Source of the DNA: Branchiostoma floridae
Lineage: Eukaryota; Chordata; Leptocardii; Amphioxiformes; Branchiostomatidae
Length of the DNA: 64,000 nt
Direction of reading: 5' to 3'
Assembly (NCBI RefSeq): GCF_000003815.2
Contig: NC_049992.1
Location: 1,425,724-1,489,723, forward strand
The position numbers and the translations under genes were made by a program. The notes under the pieces were generated by a model. That model had not been told where the DNA came from. It made no database searches and saw nothing but the letters and a program-made list of their open reading frames with translations. Of the stretch, positions 1,739 through 61,930 are shown piece by piece. The number at the start of each line of letters is the position of its first letter. Position 1 is the stretch's first letter.

Positions 1739-4700
1739 CTAGCCTGAAACCACCAGGCCTCTGAGGAGCACTTTGTACCGCTCGGTAGCGTCTCCCTTCA
1801 GCACCAGCTGTACAGCTGCCTCCACCGGCTCACTCGGCTGGGGAACAGGAAACAGGAGGAAGTCAACCATAAGTCTGACGGTCAGTCATAAAACATCTGA
1901 TGATTTACAAAATATATCCAGTACATGCATGAGTAACTGCTACACATACAAAGTACTAACTTGAAGAAAATGGGTAGAAGTCAGTGTTAGTGGCTGTTCC
2001 TCTAAGTTCATGCACACACAAATATACTGGAATGGAAGATTAACTTCTTCTTCTCTTTAAAACTTTGCCACACCTATTAAATCATTAGTTCTTGGTATTT
2101 TTAAGTAAAAATTCGGCAAGTTGATGAAATAAAATAGGTGGGGAACAGGAAACACACGGGAGTCAACTTCCACTCTAAAGTCTGACTCTCAATCTACCAT
2201 TTACAAAATCTATTCGGTTACCTAATGCGTATCTGGGGCTTTAATTTCACAGAATTGCAGTGTTAGTGACTGTGCCTCTAGTAGTAGTAGTTTCTAAGTC
2301 CACAAATATACTAACATGGAAGGTAAACTTTGGCCAAACCAAACCAGTTTCTTATTTCTAAATGATAATTCAGCAGGAGATAAAAATGAAAACTGGGAGG
2401 AAACTGCAAATAATTATGTATACTCCCTTAAGGTAGAGACTTTTGTCTTAGACTCTATTTTTGTTTAGTATGTTGGGTTACACAGTCTTTTCTTTGATCC
2501 AAAAACAATAAATTGAATTGGTGTGGCTGGAAGTAAATTTTTTTCTACTAAGAGAATCAATGACCAGAGTGCCTGCAGTACTCACATCGTGGCCGGCAGG
2601 GGGTGTCCATGTGAACACCACTTTCTTGCTGCTGCCCGCCTCCATGGTGGCTTTGGGCTGGTCCACGTTGAAGCCTTTCGGTGCAGCAAGTTGGAGGTTG
2701 TCTACACTGTATTCCCCACTCTGGGGTAGAGAATAGATGAAACTGTAAGCCATATTGTTCATAATCTTTATCTAAAACCCTATAATCAAGTTATGATGAT
2801 TTTGTGATGATAGACAAAATCAACTTTACAGCAATTTATGGGCTGTCTGCGCCATATGCCCTCCGTCACACATAACTTCTCCAGACCATTGCTGGGGAGT
2901 CATGAGCATTACCATCTGTGGTTGAGACTGGGCTAGTGAGGTAGCCTACTAGTCTCGGTTGGGAGTAGCTTGGAACTTTCCTGACTTTGATTTTGCAAAA
3001 TGCAAAAAGTTTTTAAAGATAGCAGGGGCTTCAGACATGCATTGTTTTGGCTCTGTGTAGTTCTCTAACTTTATAGGTGGCCCCAGACAGAGACCTGATA
3101 CACCCAATATCCAGCTTTCAGGCGGCAGGTTTGGGTTAGGTTACTGTTTAACTGTAGTTACTGTGATATGGTTACTGTTACAGTAACTGTGTTACAGTAA
3201 CTGTAGTTACTGTAATGCTATCTGTGGTTCCCCAACTTTTTGGCAGCCCCAGACAGAGACCTGATACAGCCTATGACCAGCTCGCAGGCGGCAGGAGTGG
3301 GTTTGGGTTAGGTTACTGTTACTGTAACTGTTACTGTTACAGTTACTGTAGCTGTTACTGTAGCTGTTACTGTTGCTGTACCACTATCAGAGTTTCCCCA
3401 CCTTTTTGGCAGCTCCAGACAGAGACCTGATACAGCCTATGACCAGCTCACGGTAGGCAGGTGTGGGTTTGGGTTAGGTTACTGTTACTGTAACTGTTAC
3501 TGTAACAGTTACTGTAGCTGTTACTGTAGCTGTTACAGTTACTGTTACTGTACCACTACCTACAGGCGTGGGTTTGGGTTAGGTAACTGTAGCTGTAACT
3601 GTAACTGTTACTATTACGGTACCACTATCAGAGTTTCCCCACCTTTTTGGCAGCCCCAGACAGAGACCTGATGCAGCCTATCACCAGCTCACGGACAGCA
3701 GGTGTGGGTTTGGGTTAGGTTACTGTTACCGTAACTGTTACTATAATTGTTACCGTAGCTGTTACAGTTACTGTTACTGTACCACTACCTGTCGTTCCTT
3801 ACCTTCTTGGCAGCTCCAGACAGAGACCTGATGCAGCCGATCACCAGCTCCCGGGAGGCAGGAGTTGGTTTGTCGTCCGTCTGCACATATCTGAAGGTCA
3901 ACAACATTGGCAGCAGCTTTTCTGGGGACTCTGTGGGGAGAATCACGTATTAGATTTTGACAGGGAACAGCAAACAATTAACCAGATAGTGAGTCTGAGT
4001 GTTTGATTATTGTAGGTGATTCTAGAATTGCTAATCTAAGTCTTTATCTAAGCTTCTGCTGAGTAAAGTTTATCTGTATATCATTAACTGTAGAGTGATA
4101 GCAGGTATTGGAAAATTATATACTCAAAACAAATGACAATGACAGCATGAAAGTTCATCTGTGTTGGTACATGACATTGTGGGAAGACTAAACTTTACTT
4201 AACCAACACCAAGTTAGACTGGGACTCACCCCAAATTTTCAGCCGACTCAGTCAGCCTTGTTCACGGAATGGACCCATCTGCTGTAGCTTCTGGACGTGA
4301 CGTCAGGGACACACGACTGCAGCAGAGGGTCCATTCCGTGAACAAGGCTGACGGAGTCGGCTGAAAATTTGGGGTAAGTCCCAAGTAAACTTGGTGTTGG
4401 TTAAGTAAAGTTTAGTCTTCCCACAAATGACAATGATCTTAAAGGAAGAAAGTATAGCTTTTACCAAGCTTTGGTAGTTTGTATATCTTTAGAAGAGGAC
4501 TCCACAACTCACCGTCCTCTTCTTCCACAGCCTGCTGTGCCTCCAGAGACTCCACACTCACATCCAGCGGGTCACCCCCCTCCACGTACATGGTATGGTC
4601 CCAGCCACGCCCCTTCAGCTGCAGCACTGCAGCTTCATCCTAAAGGGGTGGAACAAACTATTTGGTGAATGGGGGGAAGAACACCAAACAGAATTATCAA

Positions 4701-7700
4701 CTTTGGCAAATAAATGCTGATCAAAAACATAAATTTATGAGTGTGTTTAGGGCAGAATATTGGTATCCTCCCACCACCTTTTACCTCACCAACTGAAGTC
4801 AGGTACCCAATTTTTTTTACACCTAGGTGGAGTGAAGAAAGTCGTGAAAGTGTATTTCCCAAGGGCACAAGACTGATAGCATGACAAGATCTGAACCTAG
4901 GTACTCTTGGGGTCCTGGGCCAAATACTCTACAGTTTACACCACATGCATGACCCCAACAAAGGAATAAACTAAAGCTCAAACAATGAAACAAGTAAACA
5001 AGCAAACAAACAAACATCGTTCCCACCTGTCCGAACAGAACGATCCTGGCTCCGTCCGAGTAGTGCAGACTGTGGTGGTCGGGGTTAAAGGTCACGGTCA
5101 CCTCCTGGTTACCCCCTGCAGGGATGTTCCCGACTGACGGAGTACAGCTGAACACACTCAGCCCACTGTTGTTACTGGTGCCTGGAACAGGTGGAACAAG
5201 GGTGGTGTTTAAAAAGGTACAACGGCGACACGGTCAACCCTAACACTGCAGGGATGTTCCCCACGGATGGAGTATAACTGAACACACTCAGTCCACTGTT
5301 GTTACTGGTGCCTGGAACAGGTGGAACAAGGGTGGTGTTTAAAAAGGTACAACGCGACACGGTCAACCCTAACCCTGCAGGGATGTTCCCCACTGATGGA
5401 GTACAGCTGAACACACTCAGCCCACTGTTGTTACTGGTGCCTGGAACAGAGGTAACAAGGGTGGTGTTTAAAAAGGTACAACGGCGACACGGTCAACCCT
5501 AACACTGCAGGGATGTTCCCCACGGATGGAGTATAACTGAACACACTCAGTCCACTGTTGTTACTGGTGCCTGGAACAGGTGGAACAAGGGTGGTGTTTA
5601 AAAAGGTACAACGGCGACACGGTCAACCCTAACACTGCAGGGATGTTCCCCACGGATGGAGTACAGCTGAACACTCATGCAGAGCACTGTTGTTACTGGT
5701 GCCTGGAGTGGTGTTTAAAAAACACACATGCGACGTGGAGTGTAGCAGTCCTTTAACTCAACCTTAACCATCACCCGTCATATCTCGATCTTATGTATGT
5801 TAGACTAGCCACTTGACTATTCAATGCTACTACCCAACCAGTCCAACACCTTTTTGCTTAATGAAACTTACCAACAAGATTCCTCCTGCCCCCCTCCCCT
5901 CTCTGTAAGAACTCGGGGAGACCCTGTGCCTCCTTACTGTAACAAGACTTACCAACAAGGTTCCTTCTGCCCCCCTCCCCTCTTTGTAAGAACTCGGGGA
6001 GTCCCTGTGCCGCCGCAGGTTTCTGGTAGGACTGGCTGTCCAGTTGGACTGTGTAGTCGACTGCCAGGGTTGAGGTGTTGGTGATCTGAACACAAACAGC
6101 AGGTTTTACTATCAGTAGGTCATTTGAAGACATCACAAGGACAGCGGCTTTAATTACACTGTTACTTTCAGTGATAACCAATCAGCACCAAGGAGATGCT
6201 AGGCAATCAGAAGATCTTTCACATACTACAGTAACTAATAGCCAATCAGCACCAAGGACACATCAGCCTTTTAAGGCAGTGTGTTGTTACCCACTGTGTC
6301 TAGGGCAAGGCATTGAAAGGTGGAGCCTTCCTTGATATCCTTCCTCTCCCTTTTTCCTGCCCAACCGAAGTCAGGTACCCATTTTCACACCTCTATGGAG
6401 TAAAGAAAGTCATGTAAAGTATCTTTCCAGACAACATCCAGCACAGTGGTACCAGGATCAAACCCGTGACCCCAAGGTCATGAACTTCTATATCTTTGAA
6501 GGAAACTGGCAAGTATCCTAGGAAAAGTTTCACCTTGAATGTTTCGGTGACAGCCTCCCCAGCCAGAGCATGTCCCATGTCCAGTACCCCCTCCACCGAC
6601 AGGCTGACCAGGGGGGTCATCCCCCTGCCCTGGAGGGTGATGCCAAGGGTGGATGTGGGGGTGTGCACTTCCAACGTCTCATAGAACTGCAAATGTTAGA
6701 AGAGAGAATGATTATCATACATTTAACACTTAGAGTGGCATTGCTAGTACACTGACACACAAGGCCAGAAGGAAACCTAAGATGACAGACATCATCCCCT
6801 TCATACAGGCTTAAATTGTGCACATGTGAAAGGAGTGTCTGTGGCGTGTATGTGCCAATGTCTCATAAAACTGCAAATTTTGTGGTGGATATGTAAGACT
6901 TCATTCATTCAACACTTGGAGTAAATAACGGCTGACTGTTGGATTTGGGGTACAGAGTTTGGGTTAGAGTATAGGGAGGGTTAGAGTTATGGTACAGGGT
7001 TAGGTACAGGGTTATGGTTGGGGTACAGCGTTTGAGACTTACATTTCTGCCTTCATGAGGAGTGAATGACACGATGAGAGTGTGTGTGGCCTCAGGTTGC
7101 AGTGCTCGGAGGGAGTTCAGCAGGAGTACAGAATAGGGGAAGGGTTAAGGGTCAGGGTTAGGGTTGGGGTACAGAGTTTGAGACTTACATTCCTGCCCTC
7201 ATGAGGAGTGAATGACACGATAAGCGTGTGCGTGGCCTCAGGTTGCAGCGCTCGGAGGGAGTTCAGCAGTAGGAAAGGTCCGGCTGTGTCCAGGATTGAT
7301 GACTTCAGCTGTGAGTAATTTGGTCAAGGAAATGTCTGGATCCACTTAAAACTATCATACAACGATGATGGTGACTTAGTGGTTTATGAGTTCACTGAAT
7401 AGGGCCCAGTGATCAATTGTGTTTCCAAATATGGTACAGAAAAAAATTAGCGTCAGTTAGCAGGGAATCTATTTTATGATGGATGGAGATGTATGGAACA
7501 GCATCGTTTGTGGCACCTCCTACTTATGACTCATTTTATGAGGTTGGATTGAACTGTAGGTCCTTTGCCAGCCGTAGGCTTAGGTCTGTTGGGTAAAAGG
7601 TAACAAAATTCTTTTCTTTCTAGGCCTGCAATGTTTTAATCCCAAAGACATAGACTGAGGTAAAAAAAATTCAAATGCTGTACAGAGATGTCCGGAACAG

Positions 7701-10700: not shown

Positions 10701-11983
10701 TTCTTTGCTGTTTCAGCTACTGTAGCAGAATATATCTTTGACAGGGAAGGGTTGTTGCTTGAGGCACCTCTTCAAACACAGGAGAGGGACAGAGGTATCA
10801 TTCTATAACACTGTAACATCAAAAGAAACAGTTACAAAATAATGCCTCTAGCCCTTATAATCAGAACAACACTTGGAAATCCTGATTCATTTGGTGCCTC
10901 CCCTGGGCATTTTGTACTGACTTGTTACAAAAGCTACAGAATGATCGACTTTCAATAAAACTCTTTATATTTCACATCAAAAAGATGAAACAAGGGTTGG
11001 GAAGCAGTACACACTTGTAGGCCATAATGATCTATTAAATGCAGTTATAGCTTACATTTTGTAGTTCCCTGTCTGTGCGTCATATATTATCAAGCAGTTT
11101 CAACTTTCAAAGACCTTTTAGAAGATAAGTCCACAAACTGAAAATATACTGAACTGGGGCATATTGCCTGAAGGTCCCACTGTCCTTGAAGGTTGTTGAA
11201 AAGCAGAATCACGACTGATCTTGGAGATCTAAGTTTTGCGTACGTCGTACATGTACTTATATGGTAGTTGTCTGAGAATTAGGTCTGCGTACCTATGGGA
11301 ATTGTCCAGAAATTGGTTGTGGCTAGTGTTTTGTACACATAAGGCAGTTTTCCAAGACAATTAATTTTAAGTTATAAGGTTTTACAGGATACATTAGTAT
11401 AATTACTTATAACTTTTTCCAGGATACGTATTTATTATTGAAGGCAGTTTTCCAGGATAAGTACTTATAAGGCAGTTTTCCAGGATACGTACTTATAAGG
11501 CAGTTTTCCAGGATACGTACTTATAAGGCAGTTTTCCAGGATACGTACTTATAAGGCAGTTTTCCAGGATACGTACTTATAAGGAAGTTTTTCAGGATAC
11601 GTACTTATAAGGCAGTTTTCCAGAATACGTACTTATAAGGCAGTTTTCCAGAATACGTACTTGTAAGGCAGTTTTCCAGGATACGTACTTATAAGGCAGT
11701 TTTCCAGGATACGTACTTATAAGGCAGTTTTCCAGGATACGTACTTATAAAGGCAGTTTTCCAGGATACGTACTTATAAGGCACTTTTCCAGGATACGTA
11801 CTTATAAGGCAGTTTTCCAGGATACGTACTTATAAGGCAGTTTTCCAGGATACGTACTTATAAGGCAGTTTTCCAGGGTCCCCACACTCGCCTGAAGCCA
11901 CGAAGCAGGGCACCGTGTAGCTGTTGAAGCGCCCCCTGTAGTTTCTCATCAGCGCTGCACGTGCGGCTGCATACTCATCAGAA
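1739..11983 (-). CDS. CFAP74: CFAP74 exons 32-42: C-terminal domains (residues 1267-1713)
   Basis: Exons: 11858-11983, 10514-10623, 9929-9984, 7189-7308, 6534-6686, 5953-6085, 5027-5181, 4513-4639, 3803-3930, 2586-2720, 1739-1837. Exon 32 (YTVPCFVASGECGDPG) followed by exon 33 (KYNTLYLEIHCPSVRPS) matches the mammalian order. Exon 34 is short (56 nt); its end at GAT|GTATCC is supported because SDKTQD then joins LKSSILDTAGPF with the spacing of the mammalian protein. Exon 38 carries FSCTPSVGNIPAGGNQEVTV, a typical ASH strand pair. The last exons give VVFTWTPPAGHD and VQLVLKGDATERYKVLL before TAG at 1739-1741. Introns 32, 35, 37 and 40 carry repeated donor edges; introns 35 and 37 also carry acceptor-edge copies of the next exon. 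Confidence 0.88.
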
Positions 11984-26900: not shown

Positions 26901-29900
26901 CCATGCTATATTTAACTCTTGCCTTTCGTCCATTGCTCATTAGCTCATAATATCTTGTGCAATAATGCAATGTACATCATCTTCGTTAACTTTCTATATC
27001 TAAAATGTCATCTACAAACAAAATATTAAATTATCTCTCACAGTGAAAATATAACTACCTTGCTGCAGTCAAGGGTGAACACTTAACATGCAGAGCAGAG
27101 TACCAGTAGCCTCTAACTAATTTCCAATAATTTATCATGCTCTCCTACAATGGCTTGCCCTGACCCTTAAACTACACCCTTTGACCCTTTGCATACTGTT
27201 GACTGACCTCTGACCTTTGTGTAGTCTCACTTAATCTGTGAAAACCAAATCTTTAAATTTATACTGCTTTTGACTTATGCACTTTGACCTTTAGCGCTAC
27301 ATGGTAACCCCCTGACCTTTGCCCTGTCCCTCCTGGCATCAGGCCAGAGCTGGGGCTGCTGGGCCTTCCTGTGCTTCATCTGTTTCTCCTCACGGATGAT
27401 CCGCGCCACGATCTCCTGCTGTTTCTCTCTCTGCTGGGCTTCAAATGTTCTGTAAGAACAATCAATAATCAATCAATCCATCAATCATATGCTGGATGCT
27501 TCTCTCTCTGATGGTCTCTAAACATTCTGTTGTAACAGAGGAACAACAAACGGACCATTTCTAAATTTTTGCCATGACGTAGTCATGGAACCACATCTGT
27601 GAAACTCTACTTGTAAACAGTGTAAATTAATAGAAGTCTCACTCTTTCTCCCACTTTAGTGCTCCGCAGACAAGCATTAGGTACTACAGTGTATTTTAAA
27701 CACAGTTTTTCTATTTCTAGGTTGGGGAAACATATTCTTCTCCTACCCACTAGACTACTGCAGTCATTACAAAGTTTGAATCAAAAGAAGCCTCACTCTT
27801 TCTCCCTCTCAAACTGTTTCTGTCTCTTCCTCCGGAGCAGCACCTCCTCAGGGTTGCCCCCCTCCCCCAGCACGTCCTGTTTCTCTGTGGTTACACAGTG
27901 TTTGTTTGTTTGTTTGTTTGTTTGTTTACTCACTCTTTCTCCCTCTCAAACTGTTTCTGTCTCTTCCTCCTGAGCAGCACCTCCTCCGGGTTGCCCCCCT
28001 CCCCCAGCACGTCCTGTCTCTCCCCCTCCTCCTGCACAGCTGCTGCTGCTGCCATGGCTCGGTCCCGTGCCTGCACCGCTCGTAAGTTTTCCTGTAAAGA
28101 TGATGGTACAAGTCTGTCATTAGCTGGGAGTCAAGGATCAAATTGAACCAATCAGTGGCTTGTACATGGAACAAATCATCCAATAGTCAAATTTTCTGTC
28201 TAAATTTAAGGTGACTTGTAATAGGTAAGAAGTCTCTTCTTGTGTTGGTCTTCAGTCAATCTGTGACAGCAGGGTTCTCATCCCTCAGTTATTGAGTGAG
28301 AAAGTGTGAGAGTGAGAGAGAGTAAGAGAGAGAAAGTGTTACCCTGTAAGCGGTGATGTTGGTCTTGAGAGACAGCAAGGTTCTCAGTGAGTGAGAGAGA
28401 GAGTGAGTGAGTGAGGGAGAGAGTGAAAGAATGAACGAGTGTTACCCTGTTTGTAGTCATGTTGGTCTTGAGAGACAGCAAAGTTCTCAGTGAGTGAGTG
28501 AGAGAGTAAGAGAATGAACGAGTGTTACCCTGTTTGTAGTCATGTTGGTCTTGAGAGACAGCAAAGTTCTCAGTGAGTGAGTGAGAGAGTAAGAGAATGA
28601 ACGAGTGTTACCCTGTTTGTAGTCATGTTGGTCTTGAGAGACAGCAAAGTTCTCAGTGAGTGAGAGTGAGTGAGTGAGTGAGAGAATGAACGAGTGTTAC
28701 CTTGTTAGCAGCGATGTTGGTCTTGAGAGACAGCAGAGTTCAGAGAGAGTGAGTGAGTGAGTGAGTGAGTGAGAGAGAGAGAGAGTGAAAGAAGGATTGA
28801 GTGTTACCCTGTTAGCAGTGATGTTGGTTTGAGTGACAGCAGAGTTCTCAGTGAGTGAGTGAGTGAGTGAGTGAGTGAGTGAGTGAGTGAGTGTGAGTGA
28901 TAGAATAAACAAGTGTTACCCTGTTAGCAGTAATGTTGGTTTTGAGAGTAATGTCTTCTCAACACACAGAACAGACAAGAGAGGAGGTGGTGTGGCAGTA
29001 TATGTCAAACAACAGATAATGTCAAGGCACATGACAGAATACGACGTACCGGACGGCCTTGAATGCGTGTGGGTCTGGACGAGACCACGGCGGCTACCGC
29101 GTCCCCTGTCGGCAATCATTGTCTGTGGAGTATACTTCCCCCCCAGCTCACCTAACGGAGACCTCCTTATTGATCATCTGTTGACTGTTTCTGACAAGAT
29201 CCGAGGTAAACACCCCGACTGTGGAATCGCCATTCTAGGTGATTTCAACAGACTCGATAAATCGGGACTGTGCAGAGGTACTGTTATGTCCCAAGTTGTA
29301 CGAAACAACACCAGAGGGAACGCCATGCTGGATCTGATTGTAACGAATATGAAAAACGAGTATCACCCTCCTACAGTCTTGCCTCCCGTGGGTCTGAGTG
29401 ACCACTTGTCAGTTCTCTGGAGCCCCAAGGAGGAACATGTTCCCATCAAACCTACAGTAAAACACATCAGACACCTGAGTGAACAAGACCTTTTTGAGTT
29501 TGGCCGGTGGGCCACGACCCACGACTGGTCGGAGGTGTACAACGCTTCTGGCACGACCGCAAAGGCAAATGCCTTTCATGCAACACTCGAGGATGCCATT
29601 GCTACGTATTTCCCAATCAAAACCATCAAGACGCTCAGTTCCGACAAACCATGGATCACACCCAACATCAAACGTCTAATCGCCCTGAGGCAGAAAGCAT
29701 TCCACAAGCAGAGCCCTGCAGTTTGGAAACTGTACAGAAACATGACACACAGGGCTATAACCCGTGCCAAGAAGAACCATTTCACGGACAGAGTCGCCTC
29801 CCTCAAAACTGCCAACCCGCGTAAATGGCACCAGGAAGTGATGAACATGGCCAACGCTAGAAAGGGTGAGACCGAGATCAAGGTCCCGGGCCTTGACACT

Positions 29901-31985
29901 GAGGATAACGCCGCTATAGCTAATGCCATCAATTCTAAGTTTGCCGGAATATCCCAGTCCCTACCTCCGCTTGACTTCACCACACTACCAAGCTTTCTAC
30001 CTGCCTCTAAACAGTTACCCCCCCTCCAGGTGTGGGATGTGTACAAGCGCCTCCTAGCAATCAAGTCAAGCAAGGCACCCGGTCCTGATAGTATACCTCT
30101 GAAACTACTACGGGAGTTCGCTTGTGAATTTGCCGATCCCTTTTGCCATATCCTCAACACCTCCTTCGCGGAAGGACTCGTGCCGAGTCAGTGGAAAGAA
30201 GCTGTGGTAGTCCCCATTCCTAAATCTCAGCCACCCACACTTGACCAATTAAGACCAATTTCCCTTACATCTCAGTTTTCCAAGATCGCTGAATACTTCG
30301 CTCTGAACTGGATCTTGAACGACATTGACTTTGACAGTCGTCAGTTTGGAAGCTTGAAAGGGCGCTCGACTGTACACGCTATTGTCAGCCTAGTCGACAG
30401 TATATGCAAAGCTACAGACAAACCATCTACGACTTGCTCAATCTTGGCCACTGATTTCTCAAAGGCCTTCGATAGGCTGCACCATAACACAGTGATCACA
30501 AAACTGATAGATAAGGGACTAAGACCGGAACTTGTGCCCTGGATATGTGACTTTATCACCAACAGGCGGCAAGTTGTACGCTACCGAGGGTCTCTGTCCG
30601 GATGGGAGTATCTGTCGTGCGGAGTTGCACAAGGCACTCTGTTGGGACCAATACTTTTCCTCGTCTTAATTGATGATGCCTGCAATGACGCCAACAGTTC
30701 TGTGTGGAAATATGTTGACGACATGAACATGTTAGAAACTAGAACCCTACACCAGGCATCTACTCTACAAAGCGATCTGGATGAGTTAACTCCTGGTCTA
30801 AAACTAACCATATGGTACCNNNNNNNNNNNNNNNNNNNNNNNNNNNNNNNNNNNNNNNNNNNNNNNNNNNNNNNNNNNNNNNNNNNNNNNNNNNNNNNNN
30901 NNNNNNNNNNNNNNNNNNNGGTTCACCTCTCCCACAGTGACCTCACCACCATCTACACAGGATACATTAGACCTATCCTGGAGTATGCAGCTCCTGCCTG
31001 GTCCCCCGGTCTCACTAAAACCCAAGAACGAAGCCTTGAGCGGATCCAAAGACGGGCGTGCCGCATTATTCTTGGTGACTCCTACGTCGGATACGACCGT
31101 GCACTCCAACGGCTAGGACTGTCACGGCTATCTGAGAGAAGGGAACTGTTATGTGTTAAGTTTGCTAAGTCACTCTTGAAATCTGAGTACAGAGACTGGC
31201 TACCCCCGCAAAAATTTCAGATAACTGGCCGCACTACCAGAAACAGTGACAAGTTAGATTGCCCAGCAGCACGAACCAATAGATATAGAAACTCGCCAAT
31301 ACCGTACATGTGCCAACTGATTAACAAGTATGGCCTGATCCCTGAGTGACTTTTGAACGAACTGAGTGACTTTTGAACACATTTTTGAACAAGTTATATC
31401 GACTATTATATTGTGCACGTCTTTCCATATTAACCGAACACCTGTCTTGATTGTGATATGTAGTCTAAGACCAATGGTTCCTTATTCGTGATACAAATCG
31501 TATTGTTAGCAATTGAGATTTTGAACTATGCTGTCTTTTTAAATTGATGTACTTAACTTATAGGGTATCTCTCCCCGGAGGAGCACATGTAAATACCAAC
31601 ATAATTCAGACATAACTAAATGTCTGCTACGTGGTATGTTAATAAAGATTTCAAAGATTTCAATTTCAAAGAGAGACAGCAGGGTTCTCAGTGAGAGTGA
31701 GAGAGTGAGTGAGAGAGAGTGAAAGAATGAACGAGTGTTGCCCTGTTTGTAGTGATGTTGGTCTTGAGTGCCAGCAGAGTTCTCAGTGAGAGTGAGTGAG
31801 TGAGAGAGAGAGAGAGAGTAAGAGAATAAACGAGTGTTACCCTGTTAGCGGTGATGTTTGTCTTGAGTGACAGCAGAGTTCTCAGTGAGAGTGAGTGAGT
31901 GAGAGAGAGAGAGAATAAACGAGTGTTACCCTGTTAGCGGTGATGTTTGTCTTGAGTGACAGCAGAGTTCTCAGTAAGTGAGTTA

Positions 31986-32020
<35 letters not shown>

Positions 32021-33677
32021 AGAGAAAGTGTTACCCTGTTAGCAGTGATGATGGTCTTGAGAAACAGCAGGGTTCTCAAGTGAGTGAGTGAGTGAGTGAG
32101 TGAGGGAGGGAGGGAGGGAGGGAGGGAGTGAGAGAATGAACGACAGTTACGTACCCTGTTAGCAGTGATGTTTGTCTTGAGAGACAGTAGGGTTCTCATC
32201 CTGTGCTCCATCTGCTGTCTGCTGCGCTCCTCCTCTTCTGTGTCCTGGGCACGGACCCTGCAGAGAATAAAAACAGAGTCACAGTATGCACATGACCCTG
32301 GCTCTGGCCATGGGTATATGTAGAAAACATGGGCAGACTTCAATAGATTAAACATGAAGCTTTACAGTGTAGTGTTCTAGCTAAACACACAAAAATGTAG
32401 CTAAGCAAGTCAACATATCAAGAGGCCTTTGGTTTGAGCCCATTGACTATGGACATACTCATCACTTTGAATGATTTTGAATGATGAAGCACCTTGTATC
32501 AGAGAGCTTTCGGCATCAAATATGTGCACATAGATCAACCCAACACACTTTAGTATGAAGAAGAGTACGGGTGACTTTGCAATTGACTGTGCAATTGACT
32601 GAAAATGTGTCCAATGATCCATACAGAAGTAATTTAGTTTTCTCCACATACATAACTCCCGACTCACCTTGCTAAAGTCTCCTTGAGGAACTTGTTGGCC
32701 TGTTCCCTGCTCCTCCGTGCGGCCGCCATGGCCTGACGATGTTTCCTCTCCCGCTCACGGACAGCAGCCATGTGCTCTCTGAGAGGGAAGGAGAGGTGGG
32801 AACACTTTAACTACACTTACTGTGGCAATTATGATGTACATATACACAAGCATGACAGTCTTCAATCCTTATTTAACAATGTAGAGACAGGAATGCTGCC
32901 ATGTGTTCCCTGGAAGGCAAGGAAAGGTGTTAACTCTCAGACTAAATGTACATATGGCAAGAAATTGTTGTCAGGTTCATCTGTGATAGTGAACTCCATC
33001 TTGGTGGTTTATCTTGAATCTCAAAGGGCTACCTAATATACTGCTATGTTTTAGCTTGTTACATGTTTTGTGAAGAACTGAAATTTCCCATGTTTTACTA
33101 TGTCCAATAACTTGCCACTACAAACTAAACTTACAGTGGCATATCATATAATATACATGTACACAAGTCTTACATCCTTATTTAACAATGTAGAGATAGG
33201 GCTGTTGCTATGTGCTCCCTGGGAAGGAAGGAGAGGTGGGAATTTTCAAATCTTTTTTCACGGCAATATACAGTGCCGTCCTCGTGATAGTTAACATCGG
33301 TCATTTCCCATTGTCTGACTAGTCACTGACAGAGACTGACAGGGTTCTGTCTGACTAAGGACATCAAATGCAGGTGGCGGTAACATCACTGGATGGGGGA
33401 ATACCAACCTTTCTCTAGATTTCCTCCTCCTCTCGGCCTGCTGAGTGGCCAGCAGTTCCTATCTAACCTGCTAGGGGGCATTGTTTACTAACCTCTCCCT
33501 AGTTTTTCTCCTCCTCTCGGCCTGCTGAGTGGCCAACAGTTCCCGTCTCCCCCGCTGGGTGGCGTTCTCCGTTCGCTCCTTCTGCATCCGCTCTTCCTCC
33601 AGTCGGAGCTCCTCCCCAGCCAGCAGGAACTTCCCCTGCTCAACCTGGGCTTTGGCTAGGGTGTACCTGCAGGTAAG

Positions 33678-33725
<48 letters not shown>

Positions 33726-36700
33726 GAACCTTCCCCTGCGCAACCTGAGCTTTGGGGAAGGTGTACCTACAGGTAAAATCAATCAATGAAGCAATCAATC
33801 AATGATCTGTTTTACAGATGAGACAACTTTTGTAACTTGGAAACCTCAGAGCTTTGGCCAGGGAATATCTACATGTAGATGTGATGGATGGTCCTGCTTA
33901 GAGTAAGGCGAAACTATTTTCTCCTTTATTATGCAGTGTCAGGTAAAAGTGAAAGTTCATCCTTACTCTGCCTCATCCAGTTGATCTATGATCTGTTTCT
34001 CCAGAGTCTCCTCTGCTGTCAGCTCGTCCAGCAGACGGCCATGTTGCGCCCTCAGGCGGTGGAGACTGGCACTGCAGCGGGAGGGGGGCACGTTAGGGTC
34101 TTGTGAGAAAGTTCACACATATCCGAATCTATCTTAAAATTTTAACATTTTAACTATCAATAATGATGATCAGCAAAAAGCAATCATTGTACTAGCTTAG
34201 AGTTAAAGCATTTGCTGTAGATGAGTTAGAAAGCACAAAAGAACTGTACCTTTACCATTTTAAGAGTAGTACCATCTTTATTTTCAGAGACTTAACTAAC
34301 TGCTACTTGTTGGAAGTTCTTATGTGGCGATTACACATTGTGTAATGTTATGCCATAATCTGGCTGCTTCAAACAAAACCTGGTTGCACAAGTAGATACT
34401 GGACAGTCTTTATTCCTTAACACAAGTTACAAGTAGAAGAAGAAGAAAAATAGTTTTAAGACTCACTGGTTTTCCTTCTCCTCCTCCTCCTTAATCCTGA
34501 GGTACACCTGGTCCCGCTCCTTCTCAAGAACATCCAGCTTCTCACGACACGTCTTCAGCGCCTCCCTGGGGAGGGGGGAGATATCACAGAAGAAAGTCAG
34601 ACACCAAAACAACTTCTTCATATCGAAAACTTCCCACCAATGAATTTCAAATATCAAGATTCAACAGATGTTCTGAAAGTATTTTTGTGAGCAAACTTGC
34701 CCCCCCCCCCCCAACTTCTGCAGCAATTTTCCCCATTACGACATTCCCTTGGCAGAGATGGGGGGCGCCATAGGCTTTCTACAACTTATGATCCACTGCT
34801 CACTAAGTCACATGTTCGATGGTCGAAAGCGAGGCAAGCCACGGCAGTCACGCTTTGTTTTTTTTTTTTCTCAATTCTGGATGAGTGATGACTACTTTCT
34901 TCTTGTTTGCTCTATTGCTTTGTAAAGTTGATCATGTCTTTTTGTGTAAACCTGCTTATGCAGCTTTTTTTTGTAAATTGTAATGTTTGTTTTTTGGAAA
35001 TTGTATGCTTGCTGTAACTAGTGTTAGACTGTTTTGTATCCTACTTATTTGTGTATTTTTGTCTTTAATACTGATGTGATGATCATGTTTGTGTATTTTT
35101 TTTTTAATGTTTTTAGCTTTTGACGTTTGCTTCTTGTGTTTATTGTTCTAATGTTAAGGTTTTTTTGTAAGCCTAATGTTGTATTTGTAAACATTGCAAT
35201 GTTTGTGTGAGTTTGTTAGTGCTAAGATAGTGGTATACTTGATGTGTTTATATTTGTGATTCCTTTTGAATCTTCTGATTTTTTTTAATGCAAATGGAAT
35301 GTTTGAGTAATATTCATGTAAATTTGTGATATGTGTAAAATTGAAACCAGGGAAGGAAAACCCTGCACAGAAACCCAGGGATGACACCCCTGCACAGAAG
35401 TCCTGGGGAAGAAACCCTAGCACAAAAAATCCAGGGGGGATAAAACACCACTGTAAAAAAAGTCCTAGGGAGCAAACCCTAGCCCAAAAAAGCCAGTGGG
35501 AATGGCCCCTGCAACAATATGTAAATGTGTTATAGTATGATAGTATTGCATATGTCTAGATGACTGAGTAAAGGTAGACTAGTGTGTAAAATGGTAAGGT
35601 AATGCTAGTTCAAATATTCTATAATGATCGACTTTAGTTCTGTATATTTAGTCGTATGTTCTATAGTGATTTGGTGATTATCTTTTAATGTTCTGTACTT
35701 TAGATCTATGACTTGTGAATAAAAGGTGAAAAAAAAAAAAAAAATGATCCACTGCTCACTAAGTCACATGTTCTATCTGCTTAAAGTGAAGAATGTGCAC
35801 TAAGACAAAAACCACCAAAGTTACAGCAATGTTTTTCTCACCTGCATTTCTGCACCTGGTACTCCTTCTCCAACACCTTCTCACTCAGCTGGTCCAGATG
35901 TTTCCTCAGAGCCATCATCCGGATGTGCTCCGATCGGGTCTGCTTCTGTTTCTCCGTGATGGGGGGACCGCCTTCTCTCTCTTCTCTGTGTGGTTTTAAC
36001 AGTACAATCATAGGTATAAAATCATATCATAACTTCTCTGTCAGTCTGCGTTGGAGGATTGCCTTCTCTCTCCTGAGTGGTTTATGTCTTGATATTTTCC
36101 ATGCGGTTAAGATCAACTTTCTAAATTTTTTTCTAATTCAAACAAATCTAAAAAAAAAAACAGTGAAACTCCAGACAACTCACCCTGTGAGTGACTCCTC
36201 CTCCTCACTGTAGATCTCAGGATCACTCTCATACTCCCTGTCAAGGGCACCTGGGGACAGAAACAGAAACATTAATTTTTCTTACTGCAAACTCATCCCA
36301 AACTTCATAAGGCCCATAACTCCAGCATGTCTCACATACACCCCTATAACAGACATGGTATCACCCTTACCTTCATCAGACTCCATCCATTGCCTGGACT
36401 GTCCCACTGCCCCCAGGGGTTACTCCGGCATGTCTCACATACACCCCTATAACAGACATGGTATCACCCTTACCTTCATCAGACTCCATCCATTGCCTGG
36501 ACTGTCCCACTGCTCCCAGGGGTTCCTCCAGCATGTCCTACATACACCCCTATAACCTGACTTGGTATCACCCTTACCCTCATCAGACTCCATCCATTGC
36601 CTGGACTGTCCCACTGCTCCCAGGGGTTCCTCCAGCATGTCTCACATACACCCCTATAACAGACATGGTATCACCCTTACCTTCATCAGACTCCATCCAT

Positions 36701-37059
36701 TGCCTGGACTGTCCCACTGCCCCCAGGGGTTCCTCCGGCATGTCCTACATACACCCCTATAACCTGACATGGTATCACCCTTACCTTCATTGGACTCCAG
36801 CCATTGTCTGGACTGTCCCACTGCCCCCAGGGGTTACTCCAGCATGTCTCACATACACCCCTATAACAGACATGGTATCACCCTTACCTTCATCAGACTC
36901 CATCCATTGCCTGGACTGTCCCACTGCACCCAGGGGTTCCTCCAGCATGTCCTCAGGTAGAGGTGAGTTCAGGTCAGCATCATCCTGGTCCTCATCTTCC
37001 TCCTCCTCCATCCCATCCTCCAGAGGACTGTCATACTCCTCCTCTTCTTCTGGGTCCAT
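1739..37059 (-). CDS. CFAP74: Cilia- and flagella-associated protein 74 (CFAP74), whole gene, 42 coding exons
   Basis: CFAP74/FAP74 is a structural protein of the C1d projection of the axonemal central pair in motile cilia, working with CFAP46, CFAP54 and CFAP221. I rebuilt the reading frame from GT-AG junctions. All 42 coding exons join in phase and give 1713 residues, against roughly 1600 in mammals. Landmarks shared with the mammalian protein include PKPIGGTKM, EFKGQPFYSKP, MSAGMSCDMMVTFKPM, RFEVPKELRDHMELLPKTGY and a C-terminal ERYKVLLRGLVV. The order is an acidic N-terminus, a long coiled coil, then ASH/MSP-like beta domains. The start ATG (37057-37059) lies 11 bases inside an exon that begins with an acceptor, so a 5' noncoding exon is expected upstream. 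Many introns hold duplicated exon edges. A LINE, several MITEs and one assembly gap lie in introns. The next entries give the exons. Confidence 0.93.
2130..2180 (-). repeat. Degenerate copy of the CFAP74 exon 42 acceptor region
   Basis: The sequence around 2137-2185 (GGTGGGGAACAGGAAAC) repeats the block just upstream of exon 42 (1838-1890), including its CCCCAG-type acceptor context. It may be one old duplicated unit. Confidence 0.4.
3060..3745. repeat. Repeated exon-40 edge in CFAP74 intron 40, with GTAACA-type microsatellite
   Basis: About four copies of a block matching the last about 70 nt of exon 40 (ending GCTGCCAAAAAG on the minus strand, followed by GTGGGG) alternate with long TTACTGTTACTGTAACTG-like simple repeats. 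Copies start near 3065, 3225, 3395 and 3635. Each keeps a GT directly after the exon-like end. Confidence 0.7.
4177..4426. mobile_element. Foldback MITE with 6-bp target duplication
   Basis: A 250-bp near-palindrome in CFAP74 intron 39. The ends read TTGTGGGAAGACTAAACTTT and its complement, and long arms meet near 4290-4320. The direct repeat ATGACA lies on both sides (4171-4176 and 4427-4432). There is no coding capacity. The superfamily is not assignable from the ends alone. Confidence 0.8.
4755..4925 (-). mobile_element. SINE fragment (same family as 54427-54677)
   Basis: The minus strand reads GTGCCCTTGGGAAATACACT followed by a CACTCCA...AGGTGTAAAAA block. This matches the body of the SINE at 54.5 kb (GTGCCCTTGGGAAAGGCACT, then CTCCATCCAGGTGTAAAAA). 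The tRNA-like head is worn. Confidence 0.6.
5182..5710. repeat. Tandem copies of the CFAP74 exon 38 acceptor edge
   Basis: Four extra copies of a unit of about 130 bp lie just upstream (transcript sense) of exon 38. Each has the CCTGTTCCAG acceptor and the first about 75 nt of exon-like sequence (GCACCAGTAACAACAG onward, up to AACATCCCTGCAG), then diverges into TTAGGGTTGACC. Only the copy ending at 5181 continues into the full exon. Confidence 0.8.
5869..5936. repeat. Copy of the CFAP74 exon 37 donor edge
   Basis: On the minus strand this repeats the last about 50 nt of exon 37 and its GGTAAGT donor (CCCGAGTTCTTACA... to TTGTTGGTAAG), once, immediately inside intron 37. Confidence 0.7.
6290..6485 (-). 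mobile_element. SINE fragment, minus strand
   Basis: On the minus strand there is a B-box-like GGGTTTGATCCTGG, then ATACTTTACATGACTTTCTT and CTCCATAGAGGTGTGAAAAT. This is the same architecture as the 54.5-kb SINE. It lies in CFAP74 intron 36. Confidence 0.55.
6833..6885. repeat. Degenerate copy of the CFAP74 exon 36 acceptor edge
   Basis: GTGCCAATGTCTCATAAAAC followed by TGCAAAT mirrors the exon 36 start region (6660-6695). There is one decayed copy inside intron 35. Confidence 0.5.
7041..7135. repeat. Copy of most of CFAP74 exon 35 with its donor
   Basis: About 90 nt match exon 35 (7189-7308) from its GAGGGAGTTCAGCAG block to the ACTTACAT donor context, separated from it by GGGTTAGGGT-type simple sequence. 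The true acceptor side is absent, so this is an incomplete exon copy. Confidence 0.7.
7490..9900. other. CFAP74 intron 34, no gene seen
   Basis: A long AT-rich intron (7309-9928). It holds two copies of a block of about 190 bp near 7480-7590 and 7680-7790 (both with GGAACAGCATCGTT and a GTGGCACCTCCT motif), a fragment of the repeat family described at 9722-9856, and no open frame that I would support. Confidence 0.5.
9722..9856. repeat. Dispersed repeat (copies near 9.8, 19.8-20.1 and 42.4 kb)
   Basis: Shared blocks are GTTACTCAAGCAACTG or its complement, ATATGGTTTTGGAAACGGTC, CAGACGTTTC and ATTACCTG with TAACCTTC. Copies occur here, at 19728-20110 (two, partly head to head) and at 42375-42490, and a worn piece at 8728-8775. 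Probably the 3' part of a retroelement or a MITE family; the class is unknown. Confidence 0.55.
11440..11876. repeat. 28-bp minisatellite made of the CFAP74 exon 32 donor edge
   Basis: About 15 near-identical units. The minus strand unit is CTGGAAAACTGCCTTATAA (the last coding bases of exon 32) followed by the donor GTACGTATC. The unit at 11858-11876 is the real exon end; the others lie in intron 32. Confidence 0.9.
12541..12592. repeat. Copy of the CFAP74 exon 31 donor edge
   Basis: The block TTACTTTGGATCTACAGCAT followed by GAGGTGAGGGC repeats the 3' end of exon 31 (12625-12662) once, with a GTAAG donor on the minus strand. Confidence 0.7.
12629..12771 (-). CDS. CFAP74: CFAP74 exon 31: lysine-rich linker (residues 1220-1267)
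   Basis: This exon encodes a Lys/Pro/Ser-rich, probably disordered linker (KKGKKADKKGKSPSD at its start, PSPDAVDPR at its end). It enters in phase 0 and leaves in phase 2, matching both neighbours. A degenerate copy of its 3' end with a donor lies in the next intron at about 12541-12590. Confidence 0.82.
13240..13450. repeat. Two copies of the CFAP74 exon 30 donor edge
   Basis: Blocks near 13245-13318 and 13412-13450 match the exon 30 end (13640-13700: ACTCACGTCGCTGTTCC, TCTCGAGTTCGGACTTCCTG). The first keeps the GTGAGT donor; the second is decayed. Between them lie duplicated intron pieces. Confidence 0.7.
13656..20829 (-). CDS. CFAP74: CFAP74 exons 20-30: central beta-domain region (residues 766-1219)
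   Basis: Exons: 20758-20829, 20248-20324, 19437-19559, 17944-18065, 17588-17716, 16710-16797, 16209-16382, 15757-15849, 15234-15351, 14234-14433, 13656-13820. Exons 21-24 encode DFGLGSDFLDVSALDG, MGDIGPFSAVKLEIIFAP and KELRDHMELLPKTGY, recognisable in mammalian CFAP74. Exon 26 begins a further ASH-like unit (DFGFCSIYESVKTTIKLTN). Exon 30 has a short Arg/Glu-rich helix (REEVVRIRSRLREAQLKR). The 231-N gap (21551-21781) lies in intron 19. Exons 19 and 20 are phase-compatible, so no phase-changing exon is lost there. Exon 20 is low-complexity (Gly/Asp/Glu/Lys) and is the least certain. Confidence 0.87.
14530..14597. repeat. Copy of the CFAP74 exon 29 acceptor edge
   Basis: On the minus strand GTTCCAGCGACTGCCCTGA and the next about 50 nt repeat the start of exon 29 (14433 downward) once, upstream of the real exon. 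It keeps the acceptor, and its exon-like part runs into an ATAC-rich intron. Confidence 0.7.
15352..15535. repeat. 59-bp repeats of the CFAP74 exon 28 acceptor edge, each with a GTAAGT donor
   Basis: Three copies upstream of exon 28, each reading on the minus strand TGTGTTTCAG, then GAGTACACGTTTGAGCTGAC, then CTGTAAGTCAGG. Every copy therefore has an acceptor, about 22 nt of exon-like sequence and a strong donor. Confidence 0.85.
17000..17587. repeat. 81-bp repeats of the CFAP74 exon 24 donor edge
   Basis: About six units, mostly 81 bp, with donors near 17090, 17171, 17268, 17346, 17427 and 17508. Each copies the last 40-50 nt of exon 24 (CAGCTCAAGTTCTTACCCAG on the minus strand) and its GTAA donor, then TATATAAACCCCAGTACAG. 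The genuine exon ends at 17588. Confidence 0.88.
18473..19196. repeat. 32-bp minisatellite made of the CFAP74 exon 22 donor edge
   Basis: About 20 units, interrupted once near 18580-18645. On the minus strand each unit is CAGACCCATGCTCCGACAGT followed by GTAAGTCTTTCT. It copies the end of exon 22 (19437: CCCTGCTCCGACAGC|GTAAGTC). Two larger, older copies lie between array and exon near 19320-19350. Confidence 0.9.
20330..20560. repeat. Copies of the CFAP74 exon 21 acceptor edge
   Basis: The start of exon 21 with its CCCCAG acceptor (plus strand GTGGTCTCCCCTGGGGATAG) recurs near 20420 and 20523, with shared ATAAACATAAAC and ATCATCTACAGCTGATCTGC spacers. Unit about 105 bp. Confidence 0.75.
21551..21781. 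other. Assembly gap (231 N)
   Basis: A run of N inside CFAP74 intron 19. Coding phase on both sides is compatible, so there is no need to postulate a lost exon, though one of length divisible by three cannot be excluded. Confidence 0.99.
22028..22354. mobile_element. hAT-like foldback MITE, family 1 (copy in CFAP74 intron 19)
   Basis: Terminal inverted repeats TAGCCTGGAATCCAGCC and GGCTGGATTCCAGGCTA, further inner inverted pairs (ACGCTTCCTGCCAA and TTGGCAGGAAGC), and 8-bp direct repeats AAGGACGG at 22020-22027 and 22355-22362. An 8-bp duplication suits hAT. Ends match the MITE at 51734-52013. Confidence 0.82.
22385..22570. repeat. Two copies of the CFAP74 exon 19 donor edge
   Basis: AACCTTCCAGTGCCTT (minus strand AAGGCACTGGAAG|GTTTGTG) recurs at about 22390 and 22479 before the real exon end at 22571, with an 89-bp period and a common CATTGTGACCCTGTCC spacer. 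Confidence 0.75.
22571..25732 (-). CDS. CFAP74: CFAP74 exons 13-19: first ASH/MSP-like domains (residues 517-765)
   Basis: Exons: 25556-25732, 25114-25232, 24678-24744, 24151-24240, 23454-23577, 22981-23030, 22571-22691. Exon 13 holds the most conserved CFAP74 block (PKPIGGTKM to the SKPDVIHFK motif). Exons 14-17 give a beta-rich ASH/MSP-like pattern (DFDVGKTYKKKVQLTN, then DFGTQVIGETLKKTITLTN). Exon 18 is only 50 nt (DAKPRTVTTAETSLGRL). I accept it because it is flanked by TTAG and GTAAGT and is the only piece that carries the phase-1 end of exon 17 into the phase-0 start of exon 19; direct joining of 17 to 19 meets a stop. Exon 14 uses the inner GTAAGG donor, giving HLVFDPPGQMS across the junction. 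Confidence 0.88.
25385..25553. repeat. Degenerate copies of the CFAP74 exon 13 donor edge
   Basis: CTTGAAGT...AACATCAGGTTTGCTG blocks near 25403, 25445 and 25500 repeat the end of exon 13 (25556-25600) in decayed form, with 40-55 bp spacing. Confidence 0.65.
26334..26395. repeat. Copy of the CFAP74 exon 12 donor edge
   Basis: The last about 55 nt of exon 12 and its AAG|GTAAG donor occur once more inside intron 12 (plus strand ACCTTGTAAGCCTTGTGTTC onward). Confidence 0.75.
26428..37059 (-). CDS. CFAP74: CFAP74 exons 1-12: acidic N-terminus and coiled coil (residues 1-516)
   Basis: Exons in transcript order: 36888-37059, 36184-36250, 35842-35985, 34467-34565, 33967-34071, 33493-33666, 32668-32778, 32155-32257, 27934-28091, 27317-27449, 26739-26840, 26428-26607. 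The first about 80 residues are almost all Asp/Glu (start MDPEEEEEYDS). Exons 3-10 encode a continuous Lys/Arg/Glu/Gln-rich coiled coil, as in mammalian CFAP74. Exon 8 ends in the conserved SLKTNITANR and continues into exon 9 (ENLRAVQARDRA), which fixes the splice across the LINE-containing intron. Exon 12 is acidic, ends FAGLWDQEHKAYK and joins VPEDHEVPPKP in exon 13. Introns 1, 6, 8, 9 and 12 contain repeated copies of the preceding exon's 3' end. Confidence 0.9.
27793..27890. repeat. Incomplete copy of CFAP74 exon 9
   Basis: About 90 nt match the 3' half of exon 9 (27934-28030), with a GA|GTGAG donor and, by chance or design, an upstream CCACAG acceptor. Its phase does not fit exons 9 and 10, and the proper exon 9-exon 10 junction is in frame without it, so I treat it as a pseudo-exon. 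Confidence 0.7.
28285..28948. repeat. Minisatellite from the CFAP74 exon 8 donor edge, left part
   Basis: Units of about 85-110 bp repeat the exon 8 end (CTCTCAAGACAAACATC, then AACAGGGTAACAC on the minus strand) alternating with (TCAC)n-like TGAGTGAGTG tracts. About six units lie here; the array resumes after the LINE at 31671. Confidence 0.85.
28950..31349 (+). pseudogene. LINE ORF2 fragment: endonuclease (partial) and reverse transcriptase
   Basis: One open frame of about 800 codons, including the gap. The AP-endonuclease remnant shows GGVAVYVKQQ, AILGDFN and GLSDHLSVLW. RT blocks follow in order: APGPDSIPLKLLRE, RPISLTSQFSKIAEYF, DFSKAFDRLHH, GVAQGTLLGPILF, and the catalytic YVDD. After the gap comes the thumb/C-terminal part with LERIQRRACRIILG and LCVKFAKSLLKS. 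The apparent upstream ATG (28887) lies in the host satellite and is not the element's start. Known relatives have roughly 80-100 residues between the blocks flanking the gap, so the 100-N placeholder is probably too short. The copy cannot be mobile, since it is 5' truncated. Confidence 0.85.
30820..30919. other. Assembly gap (100 N)
   Basis: A fixed-size run of N inside the LINE reverse transcriptase frame. The open frame across it is fortuitous. Confidence 0.99.
31671..32154. repeat. Minisatellite from the CFAP74 exon 8 donor edge, right part
   Basis: About five units between the LINE and the genuine exon 8 end (32155), with the same exon-edge block, decoy AACAGG|GTAAC donors and GAGA/TGAG/GAGG tracts. 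Confidence 0.85.
33411..33481. repeat. Copy of the CFAP74 exon 6 donor edge
   Basis: The end of exon 6 (plus strand CTCGGCCTGCTGAGTGGCCA with flanks) recurs once just inside intron 6, including an AACCT donor context. Confidence 0.7.
33676..33726. repeat. (TCAA)n microsatellite next to exon 6
   Basis: A pure AATC/TCAA tetranucleotide run of about 50 bp, followed at 33727-33775 by a partial copy of the exon 6 acceptor side (GGTGTACCTACAGGTA). Confidence 0.8.
34818..35743 (+). mobile_element. Retroposed transcript or LINE 3' end with poly(A) and 30-bp target duplication
   Basis: A 926-bp AT-rich insert in CFAP74 intron 3. It ends with AATAAA (35718-35723) and an A-tract. The same 30 bases flank it directly: 34788-34817 and 35744-35773. 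No convincing ORF is seen; the insert looks like a 3' UTR. The 35340-35510 part has imperfect repeats of an AACCCTGCACAGAA-type motif. It is a processed copy made by target-primed reverse transcription; the source gene is not recognised. Confidence 0.78.
36355..36887. repeat. 103-bp repeats of the CFAP74 exon 1 donor edge
   Basis: Five extra copies in intron 1 of the exon 1 end (minus strand CAGACTATGG-like and TGGATGGAGTCTGATGAAG), each with the donor GTAAGGGTGATACC and a TATAGGGGTGTATGTG spacer. Exon-like ends fall near 36370, 36473, 36577, 36680 and 36784; the genuine one is 36888. Confidence 0.9.
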
Positions 37060-43202: not shown

Positions 43203-43235
43203 AATCCTCAACCTCCAACATAAGAAATTTCCCCA

Positions 43236-46123: not shown

Positions 46124-46571
46124 GTTGTCGTTTTACGGTTTGCCCTTTCTTATTTTCTCGTCTCAATGGAACTGAGAAGGAAAAAAAAACAATTTGAACG
46201 TTTACTCCAATTAACGTTGTGAGGATTTGCTAACACAGAAATGTGTCTAACTCCATGCAGCCACATGTCAATAAAGAATGAAATTTCCCAAATGCACGGA
46301 GCTCGGAGCATAAATATTCTGTCAAGAATATCATTGGTAAGGTGGTAACGAAGGTGTATAAAATACCCTTTAATTTTAAAACACAGAACTCGCTCGCACA
46401 AACAGGAACATAACATAATATTCTTTCCGTATACAGAGACATACATTTCTCGCACGAAAGGTTTCGATGACGGGTTACGTTGTTGTGAGCAGTGCTGAAA
46501 CAGTCGTGTGGCATTCGGGAGCCTTTGCCGGAAAAGTTGCCGCAAATTCTTATCGCCAACCGAACACCTGC

Positions 46572-50041: not shown

Positions 50042-50130
<89 letters not shown>

Positions 50131-61759: not shown

Positions 61760-61930
61760 ACATCATCATGACGTCATGTAAGGTCAAGCTGGGAACGTAA
61801 ACATTATCATGACGTCATGTAAGGAGGTCATGGGTGCGTAAACATCATCATGACGTCATGTAAGGAGGTCAAACTGGGAACGCAAACAGCATCATGACGT
61901 CATGTAAGGAGGTCAAGCTGGGAACATAAA
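61760..61930 (+). repeat. 41-bp tandem copies of the gene's CDS end, each with a TGACGTCA
   Basis: Four copies downstream of the stop repeat the last coding stretch (CATCATCATGACGTCATGTA, then AGGAGGTCAAGCTGGGAACG). TGACGTCA, the palindromic CRE core, is present in each copy and in the CDS itself (61733 onward). Confidence 0.88.

Follow-up and report, generated by a model that had tools for sequence, protein, structure and literature searches.

A total of 87 copies of exon edges were found in the introns of a single gene, CFAP74, in a 64,000-nucleotide stretch of the genome of the amphioxus Branchiostoma floridae (contig NC_049992.1, forward-strand positions 1,425,724 to 1,489,723; hereafter the window, with positions numbered from its first letter). 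Our analysis revealed directly the copies themselves, their contiguity with their own splice site, their change as non-coding DNA and, when counted by family, an excess of founding duplications at exon edges over random placement. These observations are probably best explained as mirage minisatellites, in which DNA spanning an exon edge was duplicated beside the original, in some cases repeatedly, the exon-adjacent site remaining the working one while the copies are spliced out and drift.

CFAP74 gene model and protein identity

The gene was modelled with 42 exons and 41 introns on the minus strand, in a single open frame with one terminal stop.

1739..37059, minus strand: CFAP74 gene, coding exons 42 (1739-1837) to 1 (36888-37059), 1713 amino acids

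The exons were assembled from the reading frames of the window and from splice signals, using generic splice weights; the donor of exon 34 is weak in this model. CFAP74 is a protein of the cilium and the sperm tail. In a phmmer search the 1713-residue protein matched 'Cilia- and flagella-associated protein 74' (PDB 9ijj_C; E=0, 1236 bits) and FAP74 (7n6g_3H; E=2.7e-103), and Pfam identified four CFAP74 Ig domains in the predicted protein. No Rfam match was found at gathering thresholds.

Reading of the protein alignments by eye revealed that the alignment to 9ijj_C is ungapped within 5 residues on each side at 13 of the 21 junctions affected by copies (introns 5, 6, 8, 9, 13, 16, 21, 22, 24, 27, 28, 35 and 37). 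A small gap lies near the junction at two of the 21 (introns 12 and 32), and the remaining six (introns 1, 19, 20, 30, 31 and 40) are gappy or unaligned. As judged from these alignments, the exon pieces inside the repeat units are old, ancestral protein sequence. The ratio of observed to expected CpG in the CFAP74 region is 0.56 in exons and 0.36 in introns. The available text of Huang 2014 (PMC4284660), in which repeats at exon edges are not mentioned, gives methylation as 33% for coding exons and 23% for introns.

Copies of exon edges in the adjacent introns

When all exons were compared with all introns, 18 of the 82 adjacent exon-intron pairs scored at least 35, against none of 1640 non-adjacent pairs and none of 1722 pairs in which the intron was reversed. 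The match ran exactly to the exon edge in 17 of these 18 pairs and ended three bases before it in the remaining one. A scan with edge-straddling junction sequences found 25 of 82 edges scoring at least 30 in their own intron, against none of 3280 combinations of an edge with another intron. At a threshold of 28, 26 edges and one control were found; the additional edge, the acceptor of intron 2, has a score of 29, equal to the best control, and was excluded, so that 25 edges were kept. They comprise 16 donor and nine acceptor edges in 21 of the 41 introns (1, 5, 6, 8, 9, 12, 13, 16, 19, 20, 21, 22, 24, 27, 28, 30, 31, 32, 35, 37 and 40). A preliminary description of this DNA, made by inspection, had firmly named 18 introns as carrying such copies. 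The junction scan bore this out: its set includes all 18 with the same numbering, introns 5, 16 and 21 were added, and intron 41, which had been named weakly, did not pass. The affected edges, all on the minus strand, are as follows.

36319..36953, minus strand: exon 1 donor edge; intron 1 holds 5 further copies, with about 64 exon and 39 intron bases in a unit of 103
33630..33776, minus strand: exon 6 acceptor edge, 1 copy in intron 5, 100 bp off
33402..33566, minus strand: exon 6 donor edge, 1 copy in intron 6, offset 84
32767..33242, minus strand: exon 7 acceptor edge, 2 copies in intron 6
28265..32198, minus strand: exon 8 donor edge; intron 8 holds 11 copies, for the most part about 83-120 apart, with a retroelement (about 28949-31670) splitting the array
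27792..28022, minus strand: exon 9 donor edge, copy in intron 9 with 89 exon bases; second short copy near 27642
27497..27530, minus strand: exon 10 acceptor edge, 1 weak copy in intron 9
26330..26484, minus strand: exon 12 donor edge, 1 copy in intron 12
25387..25606, minus strand: exon 13 donor edge; intron 13 holds 2 copies, with 49 exon and 6 intron bases in a unit of 55
24017..24043, minus strand: exon 16 donor-edge copy in intron 16 (21 exon + 6 intron bases)
22386..22583, minus strand: exon 19 donor edge, 1 copy in intron 19, unit 89, 13 exon bases
20312..20614, minus strand: exon 21 acceptor edge, 1-2 copies in intron 20
19699..19731, minus strand: exon 22 acceptor-edge copy in intron 21, weak
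18356..19465, minus strand: exon 22 donor edge; intron 22 holds 21 copies, with 24 exon and 8 intron bases in a unit of 32
17012..17645, minus strand: exon 24 donor edge; intron 24 holds 6 copies, with 58 exon and 22 intron bases in a unit of 80
15311..15537, minus strand: exon 28 acceptor edge, 3 copies in intron 27, unit 58
14374..14598, minus strand: exon 29 acceptor edge, 1 copy in intron 28
13221..13703, minus strand: exon 30 donor edge, 2 copies in intron 30
12521..12663, minus strand: exon 31 donor edge, 1 copy in intron 31
11333..11877, minus strand: exon 32 donor edge; in intron 32, 12-15 copies were called, with 20 exon and 8 intron bases in a unit of 28
6996..7272, minus strand: exon 35 donor edge, 1 copy in intron 35, offset 146; 7 of 84 coding bases differ, all at third codon positions
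6855..6922, minus strand: exon 36 acceptor-edge copy in intron 35, weak
5866..6014, minus strand: exon 37 donor edge, 1 copy in intron 37, offset 81
5114..5707, minus strand: exon 38 acceptor edge, 4 copies in intron 37, unit 130
3050..3872, minus strand: exon 40 donor edge; intron 40 holds 4 copies spaced 160-241 apart, with a period of about 166

After overlaps were merged, 72 of the 87 copies belong to donor edges and 15 to acceptor edges. The earlier impression that donor edges prevail thus holds by copies only; counted by edges (16 of 25) the excess is not significant (binomial p=0.23), and a significant donor preference at that level is rejected. Between one and 21 copies occur per edge, in agreement with the range of one to about 20 given before, and the repeat units named then were recovered as 28, 32, about 58, 80, 103 and 130 bp, with further units of 55, 84-89, 146 and 160-166 bp. 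The unit ends are fixed by the period for the 28-, 32- and 55-bp arrays, and the end of the alignment is uncertain for old copies.

The GT or AG dinucleotide is retained in 87 of 93 aligned copies (26 edges); the scan demanded at least four intron bases, a requirement that favours such retention. Scored on a generic splice matrix, 43 of 72 donor and 10 of 15 acceptor copies equal or exceed the real site; 31 of these 43 donor copies come from two arrays, those of exons 22 and 32.

The retroelement that splits the intron 8 array (28949-31670) encodes an RVT_1 domain (E=1.4e-16) on the strand opposite to CFAP74, has GAGAG on either side and contains a gap of 100 N. The insertion probably came later than the array. 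Intron 39 contains, at 4177-4426, a 100-bp inverted repeat with arms 94% complementary and a 50-base spacer, which resembles a short hairpin transposon.

Placement of duplications relative to exon edges

Self-comparison of the gene revealed 27 local direct duplication families, 21 of which include an exon edge. As a null model, founders were placed at random and survived wherever the exon was left intact. The expected number of edge-spanning families was 5.05 in the present, array-swollen gene and 6.44 after arrays were collapsed; a second count gave 4.51 for uniform and 5.08 for GC-matched placement, and matching on both GC (guanine plus cytosine) content and GC step gave 5.17. Under each of these nulls, 21 edge families were reached in none of 200,000 or 500,000 simulations. 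Base composition as the cause of the edge excess is rejected by the GC- and GC-step-matched nulls. Among families of at least 85% identity, 16 of 18 span an edge. If edge copies are taken to stay visible twice as long, their exon side being constrained, 10.2 edge families are expected (P=1.2e-5).

Arrays called by Tandem Repeats Finder (TRF) gave a similar result: 8 of 14 strictly overlap one exon edge, against 1.6 expected by rotation (P=0.0005) or 2.7 when exon-disrupting placements are removed from the null (P=0.0014). Four of the six non-overlapping arrays (at 3080, 18470, 28284 and 31671) belong to edge-spanning families. No edge family was found for two CFAP74 TRF arrays (unit at least 28 bp), a low-complexity one at 16014-16082 and one at 22701-22840; the latter, a 36-bp array of intron 18, begins 10 bp away from the acceptor of exon 19 and does not extend over it.

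A total of eight families were found in 17,065 bp of sequence from six stretches of the window without gene models. Introns are therefore not unusually poor in ordinary duplications, and it is the edges that stand out. Counted by family, the results favour a boundary-linked origin or a boundary-linked survival of duplications in CFAP74.

Divergence of the copies

If a copy were used as a decoy splice site, a frame shift or a stop codon would result in 84 of 87 cases, and the offset of the nearest copy is a multiple of three at only 5 of 25 edges. When the exon 8 array is set aside, the first, second and third codon positions show 0.096, 0.074 and 0.268 changes per column, compared with 0.204 in the near and 0.176 in the far intron. 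Codon positions 1 and 2 thus change at about half the intron rate, as expected if the copy drifts and the exon alone is constrained. When exons were compared with the consensus of their copies, 31 of 39 differences were at third positions, a surplus predicted by selection on the exon; at single-copy edges 39 of 61 differences were at third positions. Splice consensus positions beyond GT/AG are changed in 12 of 76 columns, against 84 of 411 other intron columns. The correlation between divergence from the exon and distance has a positive rho in six of eight arrays and is nominally significant in one (exon 8 donor, p=0.02), a trend that is suggestive only. On these sequence comparisons the copies look like spliced-out non-coding DNA. 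Their interpretation as coding exons is rejected by the codon-position pattern of drift and by the frame and stop outcome.

Arrays at boundaries of other genes in the window

Comparable arrays were found in three other genes of the window, at one donor and at two coding ends.

51287..51630, minus strand: gene with an LDL-receptor class A domain match (8 exons, 525 amino acids; 47802-53070; below, the LDL-receptor class A gene), exon 2 donor array, unit 64, 5.4 copies
43103..43510, plus strand: RING-domain gene, coding end (about 97 bases) with stop TAA at 43200-43202 and 3' flank, 2 further copies in the 3' flank
61717..61930, plus strand: another gene, last 35-40 coding bases with stop (61757-61759), 4 further copies in the 3' flank

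That two genes have coding-end arrays with the stop codon included speaks against a cause lying in splice sites alone. Splice sites probably account for the arrays only in part, and the common denominator of the arrays is the coding/non-coding boundary, more than splicing alone.

Other repeats were also observed in the window. The last exon of the LDL-receptor class A gene contains a 42-bp unit in 2.2 copies within its coding part (47952-48042). An open reading frame at 44963-46132 (minus strand), for which no Pfam match was found, carries about eight in-frame copies of a 57-bp unit (19 amino acids) at 45604-46063. Hairpin-type elements with related ends (TAACCTGGAATCCAG.. / TAGCCTGGAATCCAG..) lie at 51734-52012 and 22028-22353, in introns of two genes, and a direct duplication of about 553 bp with 88% identity occupies 56192-57306, a stretch without a gene model.

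Explanations for the exon-edge copies

Under the mirage explanation, a short chromosomal stretch reaching across an exon edge, with about 12-90 bases of exon, the splice signal and part of the intron, would have been duplicated next to the original, and some duplications would have been repeated until an array contained as many as 21 further copies. Judging by the conserved protein, the exon-adjacent site presumably remains the working splice site, and the further copies would be removed with the intron, so that the protein is unchanged and the copies drift. The duplications may have originated by short-range template switching or by fill-in of staggered breaks, followed by unequal exchange. 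Their excess at edges would reflect a higher rate of starts in or at coding DNA together with the purging of exon-internal duplications, rather than a benefit of the copies. Alternatively, and here our support is tentative, the coding/non-coding boundary of this lineage, be it a donor, an acceptor or a stop codon, may itself be a hotspot at which short local duplications arise, with a recurrent short splice motif acting as the microhomology that might seed template switching. A hint of such a role for the splice consensus comes from the intron share of the copied sequence: 10 of the 25 edges have a share of only 4-8 bases, roughly the length of that consensus, where 2.86 such edges would be expected (P=1.5e-4).

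This small intron share is not predicted by a pure bias towards coding DNA, and it is one of several points that weigh against the mirage explanation as set out above. Counted per base, duplication covers 527 of 1961 intronic control positions (26.9%) and 25 of 82 edges (30.5%; p=0.45); this lack of an excess arises because edge-anchored arrays fill much of the introns, coverage outside the edge families being 79 of 1204 intronic positions (6.6%). We think the family count is the fairer one, since each family represents one founding event. The preliminary description had proposed either a process starting at exon-intron boundaries or tolerance of repeats that begin outside the exon: by family, the count exceeds what tolerance gives, and by base no excess is seen. 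If edge copies are four times as visible, 14.5 edge families are expected and the probability rises to P=0.007 (P=0.0008 for families of at least 85% identity). The placement test rests on one gene and 27 families, the gene having been chosen for its striking look, and in the LDL-receptor class A gene, the other multi-exon gene modelled, only one of 14 edges has copies. Changes among copies of one array number 26, 18 and 49 at codon positions 1, 2 and 3; this third-position surplus is suggestive only and fits copies that budded off the exon on separate occasions, or sequence exchange between copies and exon. Finally, GT/AG columns are changed in 3 of 48 cases, against 84 of 411 neighbouring intron columns, although the scan itself favours retention.

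Uniform random local duplication with tolerance, in which duplications start anywhere, exon-internal ones are lost and edge-spanning and intronic ones survive equally, would be consistent with the lack of a per-base edge excess over all intronic bases and with the eight families in the 17,065 bp without gene models. It is unlikely in view of the 21 of 27 edge families, where 4.5-6.4 are expected, and of the 16 edge families among the 18 that reach 85% identity. Selective retention of useful donor or acceptor copies, for example as U1 sites guarding long introns or as spare splice sites, draws on the 72 donor copies against 15 acceptor copies, on the retention of GT/AG in 87 of 93 copies and on the many copies that match or beat the real site (31 of the 43 such donor copies being from exons 22 and 32). 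We regard it as very unlikely, since the consensus beyond GT/AG changes about as often as other intron sequence (12/76 against 84/411), the donor bias by edges has p=0.23 and the stop-codon copies cannot be accounted for in this way.

That the copies are genuine, alternatively used exon ends is suggested by the exon 35 copy, all seven of whose differences in 84 coding bases are at third positions, and by the third-position differences at single-copy edges (39 of 61). Such tandem alternative exons are nevertheless highly improbable, because 84 of 87 copies break the frame or meet a stop, the offset is rarely a multiple of three (5/25), and the rate of change at positions 1 and 2, about half that of the intron, is what non-coding copies would show. 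It is scarcely more credible that the array came first and an exon end later moved into a pre-existing intronic minisatellite, as the weak donor of exon 32 inside its 28-bp unit might suggest: the exon pieces of the units encode protein that aligns gap-free to 9ijj_C near 13 of 21 junctions, and on this alignment the reading was rejected. An assembly artefact, in which allelic exon-edge copies were joined in tandem, could be invoked since the assembly contains gaps (331 N) and since one published amphioxus mirage seemed misassembled in the draft genome, according to the available text of PMC3087553. Two alleles would hardly give up to 21 diverged units, one array split by a retroelement, or an exon 35 copy that differs at 7 of 28 third positions, and similar PGBD5 repeats were confirmed by resequencing, as the accessible part of PMC3902484 states; an artefact therefore has very little probability.

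Implications

Published mirages appear gene by gene and without a placement test in the available text of PMC3087553 and PMC3902484. A practical hazard of such repeats is that gene predictors may call the copies as false exons, a suspicion that the authors raised for a predicted lancelet PGBD5 exon in the accessible part of PMC3902484. If the edge excess holds genome-wide, it would point to a link between gene structure and either the mutational process or a filter on survival, and would mean a bulk supply of duplicated splice sites, which the available text of PMC3087553 proposes as starting material for intron gain. If the boundary itself is a hotspot, mirages would be produced steadily by mutation as a side effect of gene structure, and new introns and exon ends could be built from them.

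Comparison with known systems

Ordinary intronic minisatellites are local tandem arrays that are thought to change by slippage and exchange. The CFAP74 repeats are unlike them in that 21 of 27 duplication families include an exon edge. In the model of intron gain attributed to Rogers, an exon segment bearing AGGT is said to be duplicated in tandem, and the new intron reportedly starts with a copy of the start of the next exon and ends with a copy of the end of the previous exon. CFAP74 resembles this model in the tandem duplication of exon sequence with splice-like signals; it differs in that what is copied is the neighbouring edge along with its own intronic flank, and in that the copies are located in other parts of the intron. 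The best copy was at the far end of the intron in none of the 18 adjacent exon-intron matches, so that the arrangement expected from intron gain of the Rogers type was not found among them. The Rogers model is cited in PMC3087553.

Mirage minisatellites of amphioxus Adh3 were reportedly described by Canestro et al. in 2002. The preliminary description had mentioned a report of such repeats at the amphioxus Adh locus, and this agrees with the literature: as far as the available texts go, boundary repeats are described in the amphioxus globin genes BflGb6 and BflGb9 and in Adh3 (PMC3087553), and splice-site tandem repeats in lancelet PGBD5, with TnC cited as a further case (PMC3902484). Like the CFAP74 repeats, amphioxus mirages are tandem, imperfect copies of exon-intron boundaries at either exon end, many with AG or GT; the available text of PMC3087553 gives units of 10-160 bp with apparently no effect on splicing. 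In CFAP74, boundary-spanning units that include the splice signal were found at both 5' and 3' boundaries, with tandem units of 28-166 bp. Length polymorphism, somatic instability and a homogenisation of units within arrays that is weaker at the array ends are also reported features of amphioxus mirages. The PGBD5 case concerns two sites in one gene, with a copy number that differs between two genome versions, and the accessible part of PMC3902484 contains no chance count. Among the matches listed from the open-access literature, no genome-wide placement test of such repeats was evident from titles, which is a weak absence. CFAP74 is unlike the published mirages in that a single gene has 25 affected edges, that further copies number as many as 21 and that placement was tested against chance. 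It is a new, very dense case of the known mirage kind, and, relative to the available text of PMC3087553 and PMC3902484, the placement test and the stop-codon cases are new.
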